This document shows, piece after piece, positions 45,602 to 58,296 of a DNA stretch of 64,000 nt. The stretch is from a virus. A model generated the notes under the pieces. The model did no database searches, had not been told where the DNA came from, and saw only the letters and a program-made list of their open reading frames with translations. The first letter of the stretch is position 1; each line of letters opens with the position of its first letter. The stretch covers positions 93,714 to 157,713 of IMG/VR virus record IMGVR_UViG_3300043570_001741; one strand, written 5' to 3'. Position numbers and translations under genes: made by a program.

Positions 45602-47605
45602 ATGTCATTAACTCCTAAATTATTGCAGCAAGGCGCAGCTGGTTCTGCTAGACCGGTTTATATTGAAGATGTGTTTAGTGCATTCCTTTATACAGGCAAT
45701 GGCACCACAAAAAATATTACCAATGGTATTGATTTGTCTACTAAGGGTGGATTGGTTTGGACAAAAAGCAGAAGTAATGCCCAAAACAACTATCTTGCCG
45801 ATACCGTCGCTTCCCAGTATTTGATTTCCAACACAACGTCTGGAAGTCAGGGTAGTGCTTTTCAAGGCTCAAATGACATTACCTCTGCCACAACAACTGG
45901 GTACACTCTTGGACCAAATTCAAGTACCGTAGTTAATAGTTCAGGGCAAACTCAGGTTTCATGGACATTCCGAAAGCAACGAAAGTTCTTTGATATTGTG
46001 ACTTATACGGGGAATGGCGCAACTTATCAGGATGTAACACATTCGCTTGGAAGCACTCCCGGTTGCATCATGGTTAAGTGCACGTCCACTGGTTCAACAA
46101 ATTGGATGGTGGTACATAGAAGCTTAGCAGTTGTAAATCAAAACCTGATTCTTAACTCAACTGCTAGTGCCTCAACTGTTAATTCTGAAACAATCACTTG
46201 GGGTTCAGTGGATGGGTCGTATAACGGATTTTTTAGGGTGTTAAATAGCCTTGGAAGTTCTGACCCAAACAACTATCTAAACGTTAACGGCAACACTTAT
46301 GTCGCCTACCTATTCGCCCACAACGCAGGAGGCTTTGGCCCGTCCGCTTCAGACAATGTGATTACGTGTGGGTCGTTTACAACAGACGGAAGCGGTAACT
46401 TTTCTGTGAACCTTGGTTATGAACCGCAATGGGTTCTTGCAAAAGCAACCAATGAGGCGGGTAGTGATTGGTATGTGTGGGACACCATGCGTGGATGGCC
46501 TGCTCGTAATAGTACAAGTGTCAATTATGTTAACAGTCGTTATTTGTCACCAAACACCAGCACGGCCGAAGCGGACTTTGGCGGCCCATACGTCACAAAC
46601 ACAGGGTTTGGTGGAGTATTGGTATCCAGTATCACCTACATCTACATAGCCATCCGCCGTGGCCCGATGAAAGTGCCTACGACTGGTACAAGTGTTTTTG
46701 TGGCAGAAACTTATAATGGAACCAACACGCTAAATAGAGAATTTGATGTATCTCCTTTACAGTATTCTGATTTATCTTGGTTTATTAGTAGAAACTACCC
46801 AACTGCACCAGTCAGTATAAGTTTTGTAGATAGATTGCGTGGATCACTTGCAAAGCTATGGACGGGAGGCACTAGCAATGAAAGCACTTCACAAGCATCT
46901 GTTAGTTTTTCAAATAAAATGGAAGCCATAGTAATTGGAACTACTGGCAATTTTTCAGGCTTAAATGAGACTGGTACTTCTTTTGTTATGTACAACTTAA
47001 AACGTGCTCCCGGCTTCTTTGATGAGGTTTGCTATACTGGAAATTACGCAGGGAACCCTCAAATCCCACATAATTTAACCGTAGCGCCAGAACTAATTAT
47101 TGCAAAAGTTAGAAGCACTACAGGCGCATGGTATATCAACAGTCCTTTAATTGGGACTAACTTTCAACTTGCTTTTAACGCAAGTGCAAAAAGTGCCGGA
47201 AGCACTTACACGCTTACATCAACGTATTTTCAAAATCCAGATATTAACTATCCTACGGGGGAGACATTTGTAGCCTACCTTTTTGCCACTTGCGCTGGTG
47301 TTTCCAAAGTTGGTTCATATACAGGTAATGGTTCATCACAAACTATCGATTGTGGCTTTGCTTCTGGTGCTAGGTTTGTTTTAATTAAACGTACAGACTC
47401 ATCAGGCGATTGGTATACATTTGATACTGCTCGAGGTATTGTTTCTGGAAACGATCCATTCTTAAAATTAAACACTACAGATGCTGAAGCAACAGCTTAT
47501 GATGCTGTTGATCCAGCTAACTCAGGTTTCATTGTCAACAACGATGCTACTAATTTCCCAATTAATGTAGCATCCGCCACATACATCTTTTTAGCAATCG
47601 CATAA
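45602..47605 (+). CDS. Large tail adhesin A, DUF7483-like repeats (667 aa)
   Basis: It starts with a short anchor (PVYIEDVFSAFLYTGNG) and then repeats a lectin-like unit several times: FFDIVTYTGNGATYQDVTHSLGS with PGCIMVK; FDEVCYTGNYAG with IPHNL; and VGSYTGNGSSQTIDCGF near the end. Such units fold as concanavalin-like sandwiches in phage adhesins, so binding host surface glycan is likely. The protein is clearly paralogous to the one at 48724-50709, and base composition rises in its middle compared with flanking genes. Confidence 0.75.
   Translation: MSLTPKLLQQGAAGSARPVYIEDVFSAFLYTGNGTTKNITNGIDLSTKGGLVWTKSRSNAQNNYLADTVASQYLISNTTSGSQGSAFQGSNDITSATTTGYTLGPNSSTVVNSSGQTQVSWTFRKQRKFFDIVTYTGNGATYQDVTHSLGSTPGCIMVKCTSTGSTNWMVVHRSLAVVNQNLILNSTASASTVNSETITWGSVDGSYNGFFRVLNSLGSSDPNNYLNVNGNTYVAYLFAHNAGGFGPSASDNVITCGSFTTDGSGNFSVNLGYEPQWVLAKATNEAGSDWYVWDTMRGWPARNSTSVNYVNSRYLSPNTSTAEADFGGPYVTNTGFGGVLVSSITYIYIAIRRGPMKVPTTGTSVFVAETYNGTNTLNREFDVSPLQYSDLSWFISRNYPTAPVSISFVDRLRGSLAKLWTGGTSNESTSQASVSFSNKMEAIVIGTTGNFSGLNETGTSFVMYNLKRAPGFFDEVCYTGNYAGNPQIPHNLTVAPELIIAKVRSTTGAWYINSPLIGTNFQLAFNASAKSAGSTYTLTSTYFQNPDINYPTGETFVAYLFATCAGVSKVGSYTGNGSSQTIDCGFASGARFVLIKRTDSSGDWYTFDTARGIVSGNDPFLKLNTTDAEATAYDAVDPANSGFIVNNDATNFPINVASATYIFLAIA
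46633..46694 (+). repeat. Near-identical DNA island shared by adhesins A and B
   Basis: About 62 bp here match 49743-49804 with only a few differences, including an uninterrupted GGCCCGATGAAAGTGCCTAC. It encodes the IYIAIRxGPMKVPTTGTSVF join between two lectin-like units. It is GC-richer than its surroundings and could act as a recombination handle for exchanging C-terminal halves. Confidence 0.7.
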
Positions 47606-48175: not shown

Positions 48176-48724
48176 ATGGCTTTAACTAGAGTTAGTGGTA
48201 ATTTAATTTCAAGTGGTACCTTAACTGCCACTCAATTAGCGGTAACTGGTGTTTCTGCTGGTAGTTATGGTGGTACTACTTCTATTCCTACAATTACTGT
48301 TGGAACTGATGGTCGTGTGAGTTATGCTTCAAACATAGCTTTAAGTCTGAACAGTATTACAGGTAATGTGAATATTAGCGGCAACGTTAAAGCACAGACA
48401 TATCAAGAAACATTCTCTAACGTTTCTATTGCATCTGGTAACATTACTTGCAACTTGGCTAGTGCAACAATTTTTAAAACTGTAGTGACCTCTGCGGCCA
48501 ATGTTATCTTTACTAGCCCACCACCTAGTCTGACAGGATTTAGTTTTTTAATTCAGTTGTCACAAACTGGAAGTTATGCACTTACATGGCCATCTAGTAT
48601 TCAATGGCCATCAAACACAGCACCAACACTATCCACAACTGCTGGTTATGTTGATACGATTGCTCTATACACTATTGATGGTGGAACAAACTACTACGCT
48701 ACTTCAGTTCTAGGACAATTTTAA
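48176..48724 (+). CDS. Short tail fibre protein (182 aa)
   Basis: It has SAGSYGGTTSIPTITVGTDGRVSYA, the same fibre unit as in the genes at 44735 and 56932, and NVNISGNVKAQTY shaft sequence. The C-terminal part (SFLIQLSQTGSYALTWPSSIQWP and ATSVLGQF) resembles the end of the protein at 44735. It precedes adhesin B by a TAATG overlap, as the 44735 gene precedes adhesin A, so each adhesin has its own connector. Confidence 0.7.
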   Translation: MALTRVSGNLISSGTLTATQLAVTGVSAGSYGGTTSIPTITVGTDGRVSYASNIALSLNSITGNVNISGNVKAQTYQETFSNVSIASGNITCNLASATIFKTVVTSAANVIFTSPPPSLTGFSFLIQLSQTGSYALTWPSSIQWPSNTAPTLSTTAGYVDTIALYTIDGGTNYYATSVLGQF

Positions 48725-50709
48725 TGAGTAAAGCTGCTTATAATGTTTATGCGGCCGGTGGTGCAGCAACGCCAACATATATTGAAGATGTGTTCAGCAC
48801 TTACCTATACACGGGCAATGGCGCTACACAGACCATTGTCAACGGGATCGATTTGTCTGGTAAAGGTGGGTTGGTTTGGCTGAAAAGCCGAGCCGGCGCG
48901 GATCCGCATGAGTTAACAAACACCGTACAGGGCGTTTCAAACTCACTGCGAACTAACAGCACTAATGGTTCGTCTTCTACAGATTTGACTGGTTTTACTT
49001 CTTCCGGCTTTACTCTTGGATACGTCACTGGAAACACCAACTTATCTGGAGCAACTGAAGTTTCATGGACCTTCCGCAAGCAACCAAAGTTCTTTGATAT
49101 TGTGACATGGACGGGAAACGGTACTACACAGAACTTGTCACATAACCTTGGCTCTGTACCGGGTATGATAATTGTAAAAAGAAGTGGTAACACGGGAGAT
49201 TGGAATGTTTGGCATAGAAGTTTAACAGCAGGAAACTACATAAAACTTAATAGTACGGCCGCACAAACCACAGGTGGCGCAGCTAACTATTTTGGAAATA
49301 ACTCTACCACAGTTAATCCAACAAGCACAACATTTACGGTTGGCAACAACTCACAAGTCAACGCTGATAGTGGAGAAGCCGGAAACACATATGTTGCCTA
49401 CCTATTTGCCCATAACGCAGGTGGCTTCGGTCTGACTGGCTCAGACAATGTGATTACGTGTGGGTCTTATACGGGCGGCACTTTTAATGGGGTTACATAC
49501 GATGCAGTAACCACGACTTTGGGGTTTGAGCCTCAATGGCTGCTTATTAAAGAAGCTACAGGCACTAACGCTTGGTTTATATTTGACAATATGCGTGGGA
49601 TTGTCACTGGCGGCAATGATCCGCGATTGAGCCCAAACAGTAGTAATCAAGAATTTAGCTCCAATTGGGTTGATTTAACATCAACAGGCTTTACCGCAAC
49701 AGCATCAGACGGATCAAGCGGAATCAATAACGGCAGCAGCTACACCTACATCTACATCGCCATCCGCTGTGGCCCGATGAAAGTGCCTACGACTGGGACT
49801 AGTGTGTTCAAAACTATTAGTAGAACAGGTACAGGCTCAGCAACTACAGTTACTGGAGTTGGCTTTCCACCAGATTTGGTAATCGCAAGAGCTAAAGCTA
49901 CGGCTGGATTAAATACTACATGGATGGCAAGACTTAGAGGTAGTGCTCAACTATACTCAAATTTTACTTCTTCAGGAGCTAGTAGTTCAACACAACAGAT
50001 AACCTCGTATGACATGGATGGAATAAGTGTAGGAACTGACGTAGCTCAATCTGGATTTAATAGTTCTGGTGATCCGGTTGTAAATTGGTTTCTTCGCCGA
50101 GCTCCAGGTTTCTTTAGTATTCTCACTTTTGTTGGAGACGCAACAACAAATAGGTCAATTAATCATAATTTGGGTGTAACACCAGAATTAATTATTACTA
50201 AGTCAAGTAACCAAACGGGCAATTGGCATGTTGGTATTGGGTTGCTTGGATGGACTTATGGTTTATATTTGGATACAACAAATGCAAGTAGTGTTCAAAA
50301 CTGGTATTCTACACCATCATCAATAGCTTATTCCACTGGTTCATCTACTACTGCAAATAGAAATAGTTACGAATATATTGTTTATCTTTTCGCCTCTTGT
50401 CCTGGTGTTTCCAAAGTAGGCTCATACACAGGTAATGGTTCAACACAAACAATTGATTGTGGCTTTGCAGCTGGTGCTAGGTTTGTTCTTATTAAGAGAA
50501 CCGATGACGTTGCTGATTGGTATGTCTGGGACACTGTTCGAGGTATTATTTCTGGAAATGATCCTTATCTTCTGATTAACAGTACAGTTGCTGAAGTAAC
50601 CAATACAGATTACATTGACCCATACAGCGCAGGGTTTGAATTATCCTCCACCGCACCAGCCGCCATTAATGCAAATGGCGGTACTTACATCTTCCTTGCA
50701 ATTGCATGA
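48724..50709 (+). CDS. Large tail adhesin B, paralog of adhesin A (661 aa)
   Basis: Same plan as adhesin A: PTYIEDVFSTYLYTGNG anchor, repeated lectin-like units (KFFDIVTWTGNGTTQNLSHNLGS, FFSILTFVGDATTNRSINHNLG, VGSYTGNGSTQTIDCGF) and the shared GPMKVPTTGTSVF joint. The variable middle segments differ, as expected for receptor-binding surfaces under diversifying selection. Start overlaps the connector gene. Confidence 0.75.
   Translation: MSKAAYNVYAAGGAATPTYIEDVFSTYLYTGNGATQTIVNGIDLSGKGGLVWLKSRAGADPHELTNTVQGVSNSLRTNSTNGSSSTDLTGFTSSGFTLGYVTGNTNLSGATEVSWTFRKQPKFFDIVTWTGNGTTQNLSHNLGSVPGMIIVKRSGNTGDWNVWHRSLTAGNYIKLNSTAAQTTGGAANYFGNNSTTVNPTSTTFTVGNNSQVNADSGEAGNTYVAYLFAHNAGGFGLTGSDNVITCGSYTGGTFNGVTYDAVTTTLGFEPQWLLIKEATGTNAWFIFDNMRGIVTGGNDPRLSPNSSNQEFSSNWVDLTSTGFTATASDGSSGINNGSSYTYIYIAIRCGPMKVPTTGTSVFKTISRTGTGSATTVTGVGFPPDLVIARAKATAGLNTTWMARLRGSAQLYSNFTSSGASSSTQQITSYDMDGISVGTDVAQSGFNSSGDPVVNWFLRRAPGFFSILTFVGDATTNRSINHNLGVTPELIITKSSNQTGNWHVGIGLLGWTYGLYLDTTNASSVQNWYSTPSSIAYSTGSSTTANRNSYEYIVYLFASCPGVSKVGSYTGNGSTQTIDCGFAAGARFVLIKRTDDVADWYVWDTVRGIISGNDPYLLINSTVAEVTNTDYIDPYSAGFELSSTAPAAINANGGTYIFLAIA
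49743..49804 (+). repeat. Copy of the DNA island shared with adhesin A
   Basis: Matches 46633-46694 with a few changes; see that entry for the interpretation as a recombination handle. Confidence 0.7.
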
Positions 50710-51252: not shown

Positions 51253-51627
51253 ATGGCCGCACCTAATATTGTCAACGTAGCACTAATTAATGCTAACTCA
51301 AACACACAAATTCTTTCCACTTCATCAGAGATTGGACTCTTAAGCAATCCAGCATCTAGTGGTAAAGTCTATAAAGTTAATACTATTATAGTAGCAAACA
51401 GAGATGGTACAGCTGCTGTTGATGTGAGTTGTAATATATACTCACAAGCAGCTTTAGCAGGAACTGGTTTTCCAATTGCTTCTACTATTTCTGTTCCAGC
51501 GGATGCAACTTTGATTTTGTCGGATAAATCTACAGCTTTTTACTTGGAAGAAAATCGCTCAATAGGAATTAAATCTGGAACAGCAAATGGTTTATCCGTT
51601 TTATGTTCTTGGGAAGAAATTTCTTAA
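51253..51627 (+). CDS. Small beta-sandwich virion accessory protein (124 aa)
   Basis: Resembles the 44415-44735 protein in size, all-beta layout and position next to a YIGN-type protein (VALINANSNTQILSTSSE start, GLSVLCSWEEIS end). Probably a duplicated accessory of the fibre base. Confidence 0.6.
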   Translation: MAAPNIVNVALINANSNTQILSTSSEIGLLSNPASSGKVYKVNTIIVANRDGTAAVDVSCNIYSQAALAGTGFPIASTISVPADATLILSDKSTAFYLEENRSIGIKSGTANGLSVLCSWEEIS

Positions 51628-51631
51628 TATA

Positions 51632-52834
51632 ATGTCTAAACGATACCCATCCGGGTTTATCTCGGCCTTTTATGATCCCTTAAAAAACCCTGGTGCGCCG
51701 ACCATTGGGACGGCTACGAGTGGTGATGCAACTGCTTCTGTACCGTTTACAGCACCTCCTAATGTTGGCGGTTCGGCTATTACATCATACGTGTTACAAT
51801 CAACACCCGGTAAAATTATTTCAAGTAACACAACGTCTCCGATTTCTGTTACAGGGTTGACCAACGACACAGCATACACCTTTCAGGTGTGGGCTTTGAA
51901 TGCGTATGGGCCAAGTGCGTTTAGTGCGGCAAGCAATAGCGTTACTCCGGCTCAATTGTTCCGTGGTGTTTTTGCAGGTGGAAGTTCTAACATTATTGAT
52001 TATATAAGCATTCCCTCAACAGGTAACGCCACAGATTTTGGCGATTTGCTTTCATCACAAATTTATCAGTCCGGGTTTGGATCCACAACAAGAGGGGTGT
52101 TTGCTGGTGGAAGTAATACAAACGTCATTCAATATATTACAATTGCCTCTACAGGAAACGCCACAGATTTTGGCGATATAACTGTGAACCGCCAGTCTTC
52201 GGCTGGGGCAAGTTCCAGTACCCGAGGATTGGTTGCCGGTGGAGTAATGACTGATAGTCCCTACTTTAGATATAATATTATTGATTACGTAACTATTGCT
52301 TCAGTCGGTAACGCCATTGATTTTGGAGATATGACAAACACTTCTGAAGGGCCAATGGCGTGTTCGTCACCAACTCGGGGAGTTTTTGCTGGCGGATATA
52401 ACGGTGCTAACCGATTAACCACGATTGATTATGTAACTATTGCGTCTGCTGGAAACGCAACCAATTTTGGGTCATTAACATCTCCAACCGCTACTGGTGC
52501 TGGGTGTTCTTCATCTACTCGTGGCATTTTTGGCGGTGGGTATGACGGTAATGCAGCAAATGGTACTAATGTTATTGAATACGTCACAATTGCTTCCACA
52601 GGAAACGCCACAGATTTTGGTGATTTGTCGGATATTCTGAACTTTCTTACCGCTTGTTCTTCACAAATTCGTGCAGTCTTTGGTGGAGGGTTTAGTTATA
52701 ACACATTTACGAGTTTTAATGTGTTGCAATATATAACCATATCCTCAACAGGTAATACAACAGATTTTGGCGATTTAACCAGAGCAACAAATGCCCTAAC
52801 ATCCTGCTCTAATTGCTCTGGAGGAGTCCAATAA
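51632..52834 (+). CDS. Propeller adhesin 1: FN3 domain plus six repeats (400 aa)
   Basis: The ATG at 51632 is chosen over one at 51587 inside the previous gene. Residues about 15-108 form a fibronectin type III domain (PGAPTIGTATSGDATASVPF, TGLTNDTAYTFQVWALNAYG). From about 111 there are six repeats of roughly 45-55 residues with the core RGVFAGG...YITIASTGNATDFGD...SST. The Gly-Gly turn and regular strands suggest a six-bladed kelch-like propeller, with variable loops between units suited to receptor binding. The following two genes have the same six-unit plan. Confidence 0.75.
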   Translation: MSKRYPSGFISAFYDPLKNPGAPTIGTATSGDATASVPFTAPPNVGGSAITSYVLQSTPGKIISSNTTSPISVTGLTNDTAYTFQVWALNAYGPSAFSAASNSVTPAQLFRGVFAGGSSNIIDYISIPSTGNATDFGDLLSSQIYQSGFGSTTRGVFAGGSNTNVIQYITIASTGNATDFGDITVNRQSSAGASSSTRGLVAGGVMTDSPYFRYNIIDYVTIASVGNAIDFGDMTNTSEGPMACSSPTRGVFAGGYNGANRLTTIDYVTIASAGNATNFGSLTSPTATGAGCSSSTRGIFGGGYDGNAANGTNVIEYVTIASTGNATDFGDLSDILNFLTACSSQIRAVFGGGFSYNTFTSFNVLQYITISSTGNTTDFGDLTRATNALTSCSNCSGGVQ

Positions 52835-53796
52835 TGCCAAGCTATTCAGGTGTATGGACACTCACTGCTCAGTATCAAGCCAAGGGTTCTGGTAATTGGC
52901 CTTTCCCACCCCCACTTCTTACTGGGTCCGTAGCGGTGTTTGCTGGACAACAGGCAAATAAGCTTGTTTCTACAAGTGAGTATATTAATATTTCGTCACT
53001 ATCTAACTCTGCTAATTTTGGTGATTTATTAAACCCTTGGGGTAATTGGGGTACATGTGCATCTACTACTAGAGGATTATTTTCTGGAGAAGTTTTTAGT
53101 TCTAATGTAATTCAGTACATCACAATTGCTACAGCTGGTAACGCTATTGACTTTGGTGACCTTACTAGAGGTCGTGAATATCATAGTGGTGGTTGTAACA
53201 GTACAACAAGAGGTGTGTTTGCACCTTCTCAGGGGTCTAATAATGAAAGTAATGTGATTGATTACGTTACAATCGCTACAACAGGTAACGCCACAGATTT
53301 TGGCGATACTACTATATTAGCTTATGAAACTTCATCAGCTTCATCTCAAACTAGAGGAATAATTGCAGTTGGAACCAATTCTACTGGTTTAAAGAATGTT
53401 ATTGAATACATTACAATTGCTTCCACAGGTAACGCCATAGATTTTGGAGATGCAACAATAGCCAAATCCGGTACCGCTGCTTGTTCTAATTCTACTAGGT
53501 TGCTTTTTGGAGGTGGACATGTATCATACGTTAGTCACAATATTATTGACTATATTACAATTGCCTCTACAGGAAATGCAACAGATTTTGGAGACTTGAC
53601 TGTTAGTAGGCGTTATGGAGGCGCTGCCTCAAATTCAACTAGAGGTATTTTTATAGATGGTTATTCTAACCAATCTGTCAATGTGATGGACTACGTTACA
53701 ATTGCCTCTACAGGAAACGCCATAGATTTTGGTGATTCTATAATTTCACAATTAGGTGTTGGTGCTGTATCTAATGCCAACGGAGGAACTCAATAA
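52834..53796 (+). CDS. Propeller adhesin 2: six repeats (320 aa)
   Basis: The ATG at 52834 overlaps the previous stop (TAATG). A short N-terminal anchor contains GVWTLTAQYQAKGSGNWP, a motif also in adhesin 3. Six repeats follow (cores RGLFSGE, RGVFAPS, RGIIAVG, RLLFGGG, RGIFIDG), each with YITIASTGNA-DFGD. It ends NGGTQ like the others. The Gly-Gly of the core is altered in several blades, so the loops have diverged from adhesin 1. Confidence 0.75.
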   Translation: MPSYSGVWTLTAQYQAKGSGNWPFPPPLLTGSVAVFAGQQANKLVSTSEYINISSLSNSANFGDLLNPWGNWGTCASTTRGLFSGEVFSSNVIQYITIATAGNAIDFGDLTRGREYHSGGCNSTTRGVFAPSQGSNNESNVIDYVTIATTGNATDFGDTTILAYETSSASSQTRGIIAVGTNSTGLKNVIEYITIASTGNAIDFGDATIAKSGTAACSNSTRLLFGGGHVSYVSHNIIDYITIASTGNATDFGDLTVSRRYGGAASNSTRGIFIDGYSNQSVNVMDYVTIASTGNAIDFGDSIISQLGVGAVSNANGGTQ

Positions 53797-54836
53797 TGGC
53801 AATTTCATCATGGAGCGCAGGGATTATTAGACCCGTAGCTGTAGCACCTGCTGGTCCTTATCAAGACGGAGCGGCTCCCGGTGTGTGGACGCTGGATGAG
53901 GCAGCTTTTTGGACTAAGCAAGGTCTATGGCCTACTGCAGGAAACGTGTTCCCACTTGGAATATTTTCCGGCGGCAATGAGGGGGGCAACATGACCAACG
54001 TTATTCAGTACGTCAATATATCGACCACTGGTAATTCCGTTGATGTAGGTGACTTGGCTGTGGTTCAAGGTCGAGGGGCTAACGGAACGATTTCTTCAGG
54101 TACTCGCGGCATCTTGGCCGCTGGCGGTGATGCCGGTGGTTATTCCAACACGATCCAGTACATGACACTTGCCACGACTGGCACTTCGTTTGACTTTGGA
54201 GATTGCAGCGGCAGAAAAATTATTCTTGGAGGTTGTTCTAACGCCACCCGTGGCATCATTGCTGGTGGAGATGTTTCTGGCACAGGCCGAGTCAACATCG
54301 TTGAGTACATCACAATTACTACAACTGGTGACGCCACGGATTTTGGCGATTTGACGCAGGTGTGGGAAGGTCTTTCTGGAGTTGCGTCCACAACTCGTGG
54401 CGTCTTCGCTGGTTCTTCAGGTTTAACCTATAACACAATCAATTATATAACAATCGCTTCTGTTGGAAATGCAGTTGATTTTGGTGATTTAAACTCTTCC
54501 AGACAAAGCGCCGGCGCATGTTCAAACTCCACAAAAGGAGTGTTTGGGGGAGGATATCTTTTACCTGGTAGTGTGCTTACGGACGATGTGCAAACAATAA
54601 CAATTGCTAGTACAGGAGACTCCTCCTCTTTTGGTACGTTAACTGTGGCCCGAAATTATGTGAACGGAGTCTCCAGTTCGACACGAGCTTTATTTGCTGG
54701 AGGTACTACTGGTTCCGATTCCAACGTGATTGACTTCCTGACGTTCGCCGCAGGTGGTTCGGCCACAGATTTTGGCGACTTGTTGACTGCCAATAAACAA
54801 ATGTTTTCAGCGTCTGCGGTCCACGGTGGTTTATAA
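53796..54836 (+). CDS. Propeller adhesin 3: six repeats (346 aa)
   Basis: The start overlaps the previous stop. The anchor (AAPGVWTLDEAAFWTKQGLWP) is related to that of adhesin 2. Six units follow with cores such as LGIFSGGNEGG, RGIIAGGDVSG and KGVFGGGYLLPG. Its codon usage appears GC-richer than adhesin 2, which suggests a separate origin. The end HGGL replaces the usual GGTQ. A structured intergenic region follows. Confidence 0.75.
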   Translation: MAISSWSAGIIRPVAVAPAGPYQDGAAPGVWTLDEAAFWTKQGLWPTAGNVFPLGIFSGGNEGGNMTNVIQYVNISTTGNSVDVGDLAVVQGRGANGTISSGTRGILAAGGDAGGYSNTIQYMTLATTGTSFDFGDCSGRKIILGGCSNATRGIIAGGDVSGTGRVNIVEYITITTTGDATDFGDLTQVWEGLSGVASTTRGVFAGSSGLTYNTINYITIASVGNAVDFGDLNSSRQSAGACSNSTKGVFGGGYLLPGSVLTDDVQTITIASTGDSSSFGTLTVARNYVNGVSSSTRALFAGGTTGSDSNVIDFLTFAAGGSATDFGDLLTANKQMFSASAVHGGL

Positions 54837-54965: not shown

Positions 54966-55808
54966 ATGAATGATTTGATTATTAAAAATATTAATACCGC
55001 ACTTGCAACTACCAGTAAACCTGAGTATGGGGTAATGTTGCAGAATATTGATGCGAGAATGCCGGCAATTGTCAGAGACACAAGCAACTTCCACAAGTCT
55101 CACAGCCAGTTCATGTCGGTAACACTAGACGTAACGGCAATCACACCAATACGTTCTATCAAGCACACATTGGCTGAGATTGATAGAACAAAATCGGCAT
55201 TACAAGAAGCTTATATTGGTCTACGTAAAAAACAGATTGAGCTAAAGCGCAAGACTGTCGAACTTGCAGCTGCTACCGATCCTCTAGATATAGAGTTACT
55301 TGAAGTAGAAATTCTGGAAATTAATGGCCATTTAGAAGGCACGCAAAACCATGTCAATGGTGCTTTACGTAAAATGAATTTCATGGTCAACCAACATGCA
55401 CAATTGCTAGAGAAGGTTGGTAAGAATGAAATTACTGAAGAAGACTATGAACTAGAAGAATCTAAGTATCACATTATGACTTGTATGAAGCAAGCTCTCA
55501 ATGCTGCTCGTAGTCGCAATGGTATGATTGATGAAGGTAATTTGATTTACTTGTTTGACTTAGGTATCAATGCTGCACAAGCACAGGCTGAAGTTTTTGC
55601 ATATTTAAATATGGAGAATGAATTAATTTCCAATGGTCAGGCTCCAACTCATGAGATGACTGTTCGCTGGTTAGAGGCATGTGCAAATAAATGGGCAGAA
55701 GATCCTGCTAAATTTGCTGGCCGCAGAGGCTTTTCTGTATTTGATAAATCTTCTCTTACTAATGTGCCTTTGTTGGAAGAATCTTCTACAGCACCAGAGG
55801 AAAAATAA
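54966..55808 (+). CDS. Conserved coiled-coil phage protein (280 aa)
   Basis: Residues about 65-115 are a strong charged coiled coil (LAEIDRTKSALQEAYIGLRK). The rest is mainly helical, with NHVNGALRKMNFMVNQH in the middle and a disordered acidic end. I recall such proteins in marine T4-like phages as non-structural or of unknown role. Expression from a sigma-70-like promoter argues against a tail role. TAATG overlap with the glycosyltransferase. Confidence 0.65.
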   Translation: MNDLIIKNINTALATTSKPEYGVMLQNIDARMPAIVRDTSNFHKSHSQFMSVTLDVTAITPIRSIKHTLAEIDRTKSALQEAYIGLRKKQIELKRKTVELAAATDPLDIELLEVEILEINGHLEGTQNHVNGALRKMNFMVNQHAQLLEKVGKNEITEEDYELEESKYHIMTCMKQALNAARSRNGMIDEGNLIYLFDLGINAAQAQAEVFAYLNMENELISNGQAPTHEMTVRWLEACANKWAEDPAKFAGRRGFSVFDKSSLTNVPLLEESSTAPEEK

Positions 55809-56542
55809 TGCATCTGGTCGTTGGTACTCCTTGTTATGGCGGAATGATGTGTACAGAGTACACACAATCCATTCTTGATTTAAAAGAAGCATGTCTAACT
55901 AATAATATTAAACTTACTTGTATCTTTCTTGGTAATGAAAGTTTAATACAGCGAGGTAGAAATACCATTGCTCATCACTTTATGAATATGCAAGATGCTT
56001 CTCATCTTATGTTTATCGATGCGGATCAAAAATTTTTAGCAAATGACATTGCTTTGATGATAAAAGCGGACAAAGGTATTATTGGTGGACCTGTTCCTAT
56101 GAAAGGAATAAATTGGGAAAGAGTGCGACAAGGTGCTGTTCTAAATCATCCAAATCTTTCATCTCTTTCAGGTATATTTAATATAAATAAATTAAAGGAC
56201 CATGAAATGATTGCTCCTAATTTACCCTTTCAGGTTAAACATATAGGCACAGGGTTTATGCTTATTCGCAAAGATGTGTTTGAGAAAATCAAACCACATG
56301 TTGGTTGGTATACTAATGCAGGTAATACTATTAATGCGAATGAAAAAATTTATGATTATTTCAAAGTTCAGAATGTAAATAACGAATTACTATCTGAGGA
56401 TTACAATTTCTGCCACATGTACCGTGAACATGGAGGAACAATCTGGGCTGCTCCTTGGTGCGTTCTCGGTCATTTTGGCTCTTATCTTTTTTCAGGGCAA
56501 TATGCTCAACAAGGAGTTTTAAATGGCACACCATTGCATTAA
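55808..56542 (+). CDS. GT-A type glycosyltransferase-like protein (244 aa)
   Basis: The start HLVVGTPCYGGMMC, an RGRNTIAHHF segment at 49-58, and a DxD motif D71-A-D73 (FIDADQKF) mark a GT-A glycosyltransferase. Near the C-terminus SEDYNFCHMYREHGG holds the probable catalytic acid. Enzymes of this type occur in phages, where they may glycosylate virion proteins, DNA or host glycans. The gene overlaps the coiled-coil gene and the next small gene, so expression is coupled. Confidence 0.8.
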   Translation: MHLVVGTPCYGGMMCTEYTQSILDLKEACLTNNIKLTCIFLGNESLIQRGRNTIAHHFMNMQDASHLMFIDADQKFLANDIALMIKADKGIIGGPVPMKGINWERVRQGAVLNHPNLSSLSGIFNINKLKDHEMIAPNLPFQVKHIGTGFMLIRKDVFEKIKPHVGWYTNAGNTINANEKIYDYFKVQNVNNELLSEDYNFCHMYREHGGTIWAAPWCVLGHFGSYLFSGQYAQQGVLNGTPLH

Positions 56543-56867
56543 ATATCGTCTAACCGCTGAAGGTACAGTCCCAACATTTCTTTGCCTACATCCTGAGGGT
56601 GTTGGTGGTGTATATGTAGTTGGTGATCCTTCAACACCAAGTCCTCGTGATATGGTTATGATTGGTCTATCAGAAAATGATGATGTAGGAGACGCTGAAA
56701 TTATTCCTACAAAAGCTGACCTGTTAACTTATTTGACCGATGTAGGTGCAAATTGGACTCAACCAGATCCAACACAACCTGGTGACCCACAAGCAACTAT
56801 TCCTTTTGATCCTTCTGCTGCGGCTGATTGGGTCTGGGCACGAAAAACAGCTCTTGATGCAAGCTAG
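56523..56867 (+). CDS. Small hypothetical protein (114 aa)
   Basis: The start lies in the 3' end of the glycosyltransferase gene after AAGGAG. The N-terminal half is beta-rich (VPTFLCLHPEGVGGVYVVGD); the C-terminal half is Pro/Asp-rich. No family recognised. It could be a fibre accessory or an early protein, since it follows genes served by the sigma-70-like promoter. Confidence 0.6.
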   Translation: MAHHCIKYRLTAEGTVPTFLCLHPEGVGGVYVVGDPSTPSPRDMVMIGLSENDDVGDAEIIPTKADLLTYLTDVGANWTQPDPTQPGDPQATIPFDPSAAADWVWARKTALDAS

Positions 56868-56931: not shown

Positions 56932-58296
56932 ATGCCAATCTCAAGAATTACAGCTAATAGTATTACAGCAAACACGATTACATCTGCAGCTCTGGCCAAC
57001 ACTGGCGTAACATCCGGTGTTTATGGTGGTGCTGGTGCTATTCCAATTATCACAGTCGATTCTGTTGGTAGACTGACAAGTGCAGCTAATGTTGCAATTA
57101 GCGGCAGTAGTGTAAAATTATCTTCACGTTCATCTAATACAATATTAGGTGTAAATGATAACTCTTATGTAATTAACCTCAGTAGTACATTTACACAAAC
57201 ATTCACCGCTGCAGCAACTTTAGGTGACGGTTGGTTCTGTTACCTAAAGAATGGTGGTTCAGGTGACATTACACTTGATCCAAACGCAAGCGAAACGATT
57301 GATGGCTTAACAAGTTTTGTAATGTATCCTGGCGAAGTTCGATTGGTTCAATGTACAGGAACAGCATTTACTTCTATAGTTTTAGATACGTTTAAAAAAA
57401 CAATAACTTCAACAGGAGCATTTATTACTCCACCTGGTTACACACAATTGTCTTTAAGAATGTGGGGTGGCGGTGGAGGTGGTGGAGGTGGTAGAGGCGC
57501 AGGTGCACCCGGTCGTTACTCAGGTGCCGGTGGCGCTGGCGGTGGCCAACATATTGCAACTTTTGAAAGTACAGCAGGAACATCCACTACAGTAACTATT
57601 GGTGCCGGCGGCACAGCTGGAGCAGGTGGCCTATCTTCTTCTTCTGATGGTACAGCTGGTGGAGATACTTCTTTTGGCACACAGTTCTATGCTTATGGTG
57701 GTTATTTTGGCCACACCGCAAGCTCAGGCGCTTCTGGCCTAAGCGGCGGCGGCGGAGGTATATTGAGTGCTGGTACTTCAACCACTGGTGGTAATCCTAA
57801 AATGCCTGGTTCCAGTACTACTGGTGTTATTGTTTATGGTGATAGAGGCACAAGTGAAAATTTTTGTATGAATTTTGGATTTGGCGGTGGTGCTCCTAGT
57901 TCCGGAAATCTAGGCTATACTGAATATGGTGGGTCAGCTGGTGGTAGCAATTCTTCTAGAGGATCGAATAGTATATTTGGTGCTACAGGTGGGGGTTCAG
58001 GAGAACAAATGGATGGGTCTGGTAACCCCGGCAACGGCGGTGTAGGTTTCCAAGGCGGTGGCATTGGTTACACAACAGCTTACACTAATGGAGCTTTGCA
58101 CAGCACTAACGGTGTAGTATTAAGTAGTGGCAGTGGAGGCGGTGGCGGCGGAGGTGCTTCTGGTGGTGTAAGTGGCGGTTCTGGCGCAACTCCAGGTGGA
58201 GGTGGCGGAGGAGGCGGTGCAAACTTTGGCGGTGGTAATGGCGGTTCTGGCGGTGCTGGTGGAAACGGACTTTGTATTATTTGGGGGATTGTATAA
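56932..58296 (+). CDS. Tail fibre with Gly-rich adhesin domain (454 aa)
   Basis: Residues about 20-60 contain the fibre unit SGVYGGAGAIPIITVDSVGRLTSA shared with genes 44735 and 48176. A beta domain follows to about 165. The rest is dominated by runs of Gly (GGGGGGGGG near residues 180-190 and again near 400-430) broken by short variable loops. This is the layout of polyglycine-helix adhesins such as gp38 of T-even phages, where loops touch the receptor. It is thus a likely receptor-binding protein. Confidence 0.75.
   Translation: MPISRITANSITANTITSAALANTGVTSGVYGGAGAIPIITVDSVGRLTSAANVAISGSSVKLSSRSSNTILGVNDNSYVINLSSTFTQTFTAAATLGDGWFCYLKNGGSGDITLDPNASETIDGLTSFVMYPGEVRLVQCTGTAFTSIVLDTFKKTITSTGAFITPPGYTQLSLRMWGGGGGGGGGRGAGAPGRYSGAGGAGGGQHIATFESTAGTSTTVTIGAGGTAGAGGLSSSSDGTAGGDTSFGTQFYAYGGYFGHTASSGASGLSGGGGGILSAGTSTTGGNPKMPGSSTTGVIVYGDRGTSENFCMNFGFGGGAPSSGNLGYTEYGGSAGGSNSSRGSNSIFGATGGGSGEQMDGSGNPGNGGVGFQGGGIGYTTAYTNGALHSTNGVVLSSGSGGGGGGGASGGVSGGSGATPGGGGGGGGANFGGGNGGSGGAGGNGLCIIWGIV

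Follow-up and report, generated by a model that had tools for sequence, protein, structure and literature searches.

Three adjoining genes of a T4-like myophage: a probable receptor-binding array of predicted Kelch-like propellers with exchangeable heads

Three overlapping genes and their setting

The window, a stretch of 64,000 nucleotides that spans bases 93714-157713 of a virus record of 157.7 kb, carries three overlapping genes, A, B and C, each of which encodes a slot-specific N-terminal anchor followed by a C-terminal head of repeated units. The ATG of gene B overlaps the TAA of gene A and the ATG of gene C overlaps the stop of gene B, an uninterrupted run of overlapping genes that suggests that all three proteins are made together. 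An alternative TTG start of gene B that the ORF tool reports at 52813 is unlikely to be in use. A search of the 157.7-kb record with protein A matched genes A, B and C alone. The features of the array and its immediate neighbours are as follows.

51253..51627, + strand: gene directly upstream of the array, 124 aa; present in 67 of 79 slot-C loci
51632-52834, + strand: gene A, 400 aa
51632..51955, + strand: slot A anchor, a short N-terminal peptide (GFISAFYDPLKNP) and one FN3 domain (Pfam fn3, E 4e-6)
51959..52831, + strand: slot A head, predicted six-unit Kelch-like propeller (HMM units, AlphaFold2, Foldseek)
52834-53796, + strand: gene B, 320 aa
52834..52902, + strand: slot B anchor, MPSYSGVWTL...NWP peptide, which also starts the slot B genes of relatives
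52930..53793, + strand: slot B head, predicted six-unit Kelch-like propeller (HMM units)
53796-54836, + strand: gene C, 346 aa
53796..53945, + strand: slot C anchor, GxIIRxxxVxPAGPxQxGAAxGVWTL...KQGLWPTAGN peptide (alignment of 17 anchors with different heads)
53952..54833, + strand: slot C head, predicted six-unit Kelch-like propeller (HMM units, AlphaFold2, Foldseek)
54966..55808, + strand: gene directly downstream, 280 aa, PHROG 1409; in 48 of 63 testable slot-C loci, a median of 36.5 bases past C
55808..56542, + strand: downstream neighbour, 244 aa, PHROG 1574 (function unknown); in 44 of 63 testable slot-C loci
56523..56867, + strand: downstream neighbour, 114 aa; in 37 of 63 testable slot-C loci

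Upstream of the array lie T4-like baseplate genes and, after them, genes for tail-fibre-like and tail-fibre-assembly proteins. The T4-type major capsid protein (gp23) is 64.8% identical to that of cyanophage P-TIM40 and 62.6% identical to that of pelagiphage HTVC008M. We rejected a cyanophage assignment of the host: the psbA/psbD family is absent, and gp23 is nearly equidistant from cyanophages and a pelagiphage. The propeller family also occurs at eight loci in bacterial genomes, mostly metagenome-assembled genomes from unrelated phyla; these are likely phage contigs that were misbinned; no host was drawn from them. tblastn searches for cultured relatives with three family members gave one weak match, to Synechococcus phage S-SKS1, and the query P0001 gave none. 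The S-SKS1 match (L243, NC_020851.1:202317-203132) is a distant propeller relative at 27-31% identity, located in a stretch without an annotated gene.

The PHROG 1574 protein is about 82% identical in its conserved position downstream of the array, and scans found no Pfam, NCBIfam or PDB relative of it. Two large DUF7483 or tail-fibre-like proteins are encoded at 45602-47605 and 48724-50709, and DUF7483 forms the slot C head in three related loci (L074, L077 and L141). A Gly-rich protein (PF21722) is encoded at 56932-58296, and Gly-rich heads sit on slot A or B anchors in four relatives (L107, L130, L132 and L239).

The six-unit rule and the propeller fold

Each of the three genes encodes six units (6+6+6 = 18), as an earlier note made from the sequence had counted, and all 18 score 48-73 bits, far above chance, against a unit HMM that was itself built from these same 18 units. 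The unit size of 45-55 residues given in that note is slightly too large, the measured spacing being 44-51 residues. The consensus core TGNATDFGD is constant (G in 94-99% and F in 96% of units) and the loops are variable, in agreement with the same note. Same-codon rates in the core are near background, with a mild excess at Phe codons alone, which argues that the core is conserved as protein; homogenisation of the core at the DNA level was accordingly rejected. Recent shuffling of single blades was likewise set aside, as in 200 of 204 cases nearest units sharing at least 80% identity occupy the same blade position, with a signal too weak to read below 80%.

The number of units is governed by the same rule in relatives. 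Of 275 complete distinct ORFs that contain the unit, 6 units are present in 211, 12 in 45 and 18 in 5. One of these three numbers is thus found in 261 ORFs, and likewise in 223 of the 232 clusters formed at 70% identity. Neighbouring units lie 41-55 residues apart inside a six and 56-76 residues apart between sixes, ranges that do not overlap. Exceptions comprise L031 and L050-L053, with weak units near the score threshold; L030, with one spurious extra match; L015, with an ORF of 11 units; and two slot A genes that are split between neighbouring reading frames, as 2+4 in L021 (4846-6059) and as 3+3 in L166 (from 2778), the pieces of which sum to six. Inactivation or sequencing error could possibly account for the two split genes. 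That the unit number is locked to six favours closed rings and disfavours an open solenoid.

AlphaFold2, supplied with alignments of 77 (A) and 45 (C) relatives, predicts both heads to be closed six-bladed Kelch-type propellers, with a pLDDT of 94.5 and a pTM of 0.87 for head A and a pLDDT of 87.1 and a pTM of 0.82 for head C. DSSP assignment on these models gives blades of four antiparallel strands, six to a closed ring; in one blade of A, strands a to d span residues 147-150, 154-158, 165-170 and 178-182. Closed six-blade propellers had been proposed in the earlier note, and both the models and the multiples-of-six counts bear this out; an open solenoid or an unrelated fold, named beforehand as the outcomes that would contradict the proposal, appeared in the model of neither A nor C. 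In Foldseek searches with A and C, the best solved structures were the Kelch domains of KLHL12 and Keap1 and the designed six-bladed SAKe proteins, with alignments of about 290 columns over the whole length and TM scores by target mostly of 0.85-0.91. The nearest named protein among viral models was a Kelch-motif protein of Burkholderia phage BcepSaruman. All three chains open with strand-b sequence and close after strand-a sequence, which, from the sequence and strand list, indicates that the C-terminus would complete the first blade, as in other propellers. Head B is up to 58% identical to head A and, judged by its sequence, would be a six-unit Kelch-like propeller as well.

The Kelch signature of a double Gly in strand b and a Tyr in strand c is recognizable in the units (GG in 85%/91% and Tyr in 77% in a MAFFT alignment; 92%/99%/87% in the HMM alignment), and Phe takes the place of the conserved Kelch Trp in 96% of them. 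A Pfam scan returned no Kelch family at E values up to 0.1, the propellers matched no PHROG of known function, and a PDB sequence search found no propeller relative, returning FN3 matches alone, for A.

Slots, heads and their exchange

We found three distinct anchors, one per gene, as the earlier note had described; its division into FN3 and GVWTL types needs amending, as FN3 occurs in A only and B and C both follow a GVWTL...WP pattern. No trimerization domain was recognized in the proteins, and Pfam, PHROGs and NCBIfam scans detected no gp10-like XD domains, returning only FN3-type matches, in A. A survey of relatives by anchor identified 65 A, 76 B and 79 C genes, 220 distinct anchor genes in all. 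Their order is A-B-C without exception in the 41 loci that have all three, with stop-to-start distances mostly of -1 to 5 bases. The slot A anchor is kept in relatives, and its first part reaches 100% DNA identity between phages with differing heads.

A Kelch-like head of the array type is carried by 189 of the 220 anchor genes. The other heads on these anchors belong to a second Kelch-like family, a WD40 type, and Lcl_C lectin-like, DUF7483, laminin-G, SBBP and Gly-rich types. The second Kelch-like family, with the repeat IFALG...TTRNKYTYSG...SAAGNST (for example L152:4989-6014, L075:1309-2325 and L082:2512-3444), has exactly six units in all 9 complete members; it aligns with the first by profile at an E value of 5e-16, part of this score coming from the shared anchor. 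WD40-type heads have seven repeats in most complete members and match PDB WD40 propellers (E 2e-30). Three of them, with near-identical AVAH...FITAYPWSGSGFGTKF repeats, sit on anchors A and C (L079:7989-9128, L084:7989-9125 and L085:8001-9134). Double propellers of 12 units occupy slot C in 29 of 59 complete cases, and slots A and B in 2 each.

Heads are exchanged at the DNA level. Loci L070, with a second-family Kelch-like head, and L074, with a DUF7483 head, share 96% DNA identity upstream and 98% in the anchor, against 57% in the head, on a measure by which unrelated DNA gives about 52-60%. Among the relatives, metagenome contigs in which some anchor/head junctions may be assembly chimeras, pairs with an anchor DNA identity of at least 90% had heads below 65% in 396 of 413 cases for slot A, 47 of 58 for slot B and 91 of 109 for slot C. 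In slot A of L096 and L099, identity per 50-base window is 84-100% over 700 bases of upstream sequence and anchor, then falls to 22-34% past the anchor/head junction. The slot A head of L096 is that of slot C in L099, with 96.4% identity over 842 bp from just after the C anchor to the gene end. Similarly, the slot B head of L134 matches the slot C head of L004 (87.4%, 856 bp) with sharp junctions, and the second module of the L146 slot C gene matches the single module of L063 slot C (88%). These moves of complete heads indicate that whole propellers can be units of exchange. Homologous recombination within the anchor would be the simplest mechanism.

Receptor binding and related systems

Proteins A, B and C combine a conserved N-terminal anchor with an exchangeable C-terminal head, and their genes are separate slots, an arrangement that is the signature of phage receptor-binding proteins. 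We consider it probable that genes A-C of this T4-like myophage constitute a three-slot receptor-binding array, the heads of which are replaced through anchor recombination. The slot-specific anchor would fix each protein to the tail or baseplate, and the head would be a closed six-bladed Kelch-like propeller whose ends meet in one blade and both exit on the conserved face. A different and, in our judgement, unlikely placement is that the proteins decorate the capsid or neck and adhere loosely to particles or polysaccharide instead of binding a specific receptor. Phage heads often bear FN3 and Ig-like domains, and A carries FN3, but the genes come after baseplate, tail-fibre and tail-fibre-assembly genes, and wholesale head replacement together with loop variation would be unexpected in a generic adhesive.

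In a receptor-binding array, an abrupt change of host recognition would follow when recombination in anchor DNA brings in another propeller, another fold or a head from another slot. We regard it as very unlikely that such swapping is mostly an artefact of assembly joining strains at conserved anchors. The relatives all come from metagenomes, and the anchors are short conserved islands at which assemblers can switch strain; against this, many pairs from different metagenomes show the pattern (88 slot-A pairs have at least 90% identity upstream and less than 70% in the head), heads of other folds occur on the same anchor in several contigs, and a moved head is complete as far as the gene end.

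A slower change would come from substitutions in the loops. In an alignment of 942 units, with blades 1-5 scored, the most variable positions are 21-26 (the d-a loop) and 41-50 (the b-c loop), and the a-b turn and c-d loop are conserved. The d-a and b-c loops share one side of the antiparallel four-stranded blade, and a-b and c-d lie on the opposite side. In Keap1, KLHL12 and SAKe6 the ligand face is built from the b-c and d-a loops, and in Keap1 this face is the ligand-binding side. The chain termini would lie on the conserved side, so that the variable face would be directed away from the anchor; its two kinds of loop, b-c and d-a, would thereby form a distal face that would bind a ligand, probably a glycan or protein on the bacterial surface. 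In 18 close head pairs, core positions have a pN/pS of 0.10 and loop positions one of 0.44, at similar pS: the heads are maintained by purifying selection and the loops change faster. The loop value, below 1 overall, is no proof of positive selection.

The nature of the conserved residues also bears on whether the propellers are sialidase-like or depolymerase-like enzymes that break down a surface polymer. Phage endosialidases do have a propeller fold (PMC4901313), but the invariant residues here, G, F, T, R and D, are structural and recur in every blade, no conserved asymmetric polar site was found in the loops of 77 sequences, and the nearest structures are binding domains, those of Keap1 and KLHL12, which together make an enzymatic role highly improbable. 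Diversification of the loops by a diversity-generating retroelement is scarcely credible, as the conserved scaffold with variable loops would fit but the 157.7-kb record contains no reverse transcriptase (PF00078) in searches whose controls worked, and variation spreads over about twelve loops per head in addition to the exchange of whole heads.

Propellers in phage receptor-binding proteins, phage Kelch-like proteins and receptor-binding-protein clusters with swappable heads are already known. The literature searched, which covered few subscription papers, contained no description of a three-slot propeller array. The closest parallel in organization is the TSP1-TSP4 cluster of Ackermannviridae, in which N-termini are conserved, heads are swappable and recombination in conserved 5′ ends alters host recognition (PMC11414711). 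Like that cluster, the array groups several putative receptor-binding genes whose products have a conserved N-terminal part for docking and a C-terminal head that can be exchanged; unlike it, the array, here described from sequence, has Kelch-like or WD40 propellers rather than tailspikes, on anchors that are short peptides or FN3. Adhesin swapping through conserved motifs in the T-even distal tail fibre, as summarized in citing papers (Tetart, Desplats and Krisch 1998, J Mol Biol 282:543; cited in PMC7468147 and PMC11414711), appears from those summaries to differ in that the array has three slots, exchanges whole closed domains and moves them between slots. Cryoconite phages carry flexible receptor-binding modules within near-identical backbones (PMC7468147).

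Propellers themselves occur in phages with other architectures. The jumbo phage CBB encodes Kelch-like proteins, of which CBB_552 was detected in virions by mass spectrometry (PMC5259590). In the available part of that account, CBB resembles the array in having several Kelch-type propeller genes close together; a three-slot anchor system is absent from that part, and the array families match no Pfam Kelch model. Proven or putative receptor-binding proteins with β-propellers include the five-bladed phi11 RBP, the distorted five-bladed P2 of PRD1 and the seven-bladed gp131C of PhiKZ (PMC4901313), from which the array differs in blade number and architecture, the phi11 RBP being a trimer with a stem and tower. 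With Keap1, KLHL12 and SAKe6 the heads share six four-stranded blades and GG in strand b, but are only 10-17% identical to them, have F for the Kelch W and stand in a viral context. Pelagimyophages and cyanomyophages, related aquatic T4-like phages, have a host recognition cluster with YHYH, ConA, collagen, Mtd and YadA domains, described in PMC7029224 as a large variable island with putative receptor-binding genes, to that extent like the array; a term search of that paper found no mention of fibronectin.

Beyond this one locus, we lean towards the view that a widespread group of uncultured T4-like phages has a fixed three-slot docking array for combinatorial receptor binding, in which whole closed propellers of three sequence families (one WD40-like with seven blades and two Kelch-like with six), and heads of other folds, move from phage to phage and from slot to slot by way of conserved anchor DNA. 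The receptor-binding proteins of uncultured aquatic phages mostly lack annotation; the unit rule, the slot-identifying anchors and the map of the variable face make such heads recognizable in metagenomes and open to glycan-binding tests. Moves of heads between slots show anchor and head to be separable modules in nature, which bears on the general question of one-step change of host recognition in phages. Larger collections of propellers also occur on other viral contigs: L022 packs nine propeller ORFs into 11.8 kb and L030 packs eleven into 16.9 kb, with N-terminal parts that differ from those of the array.
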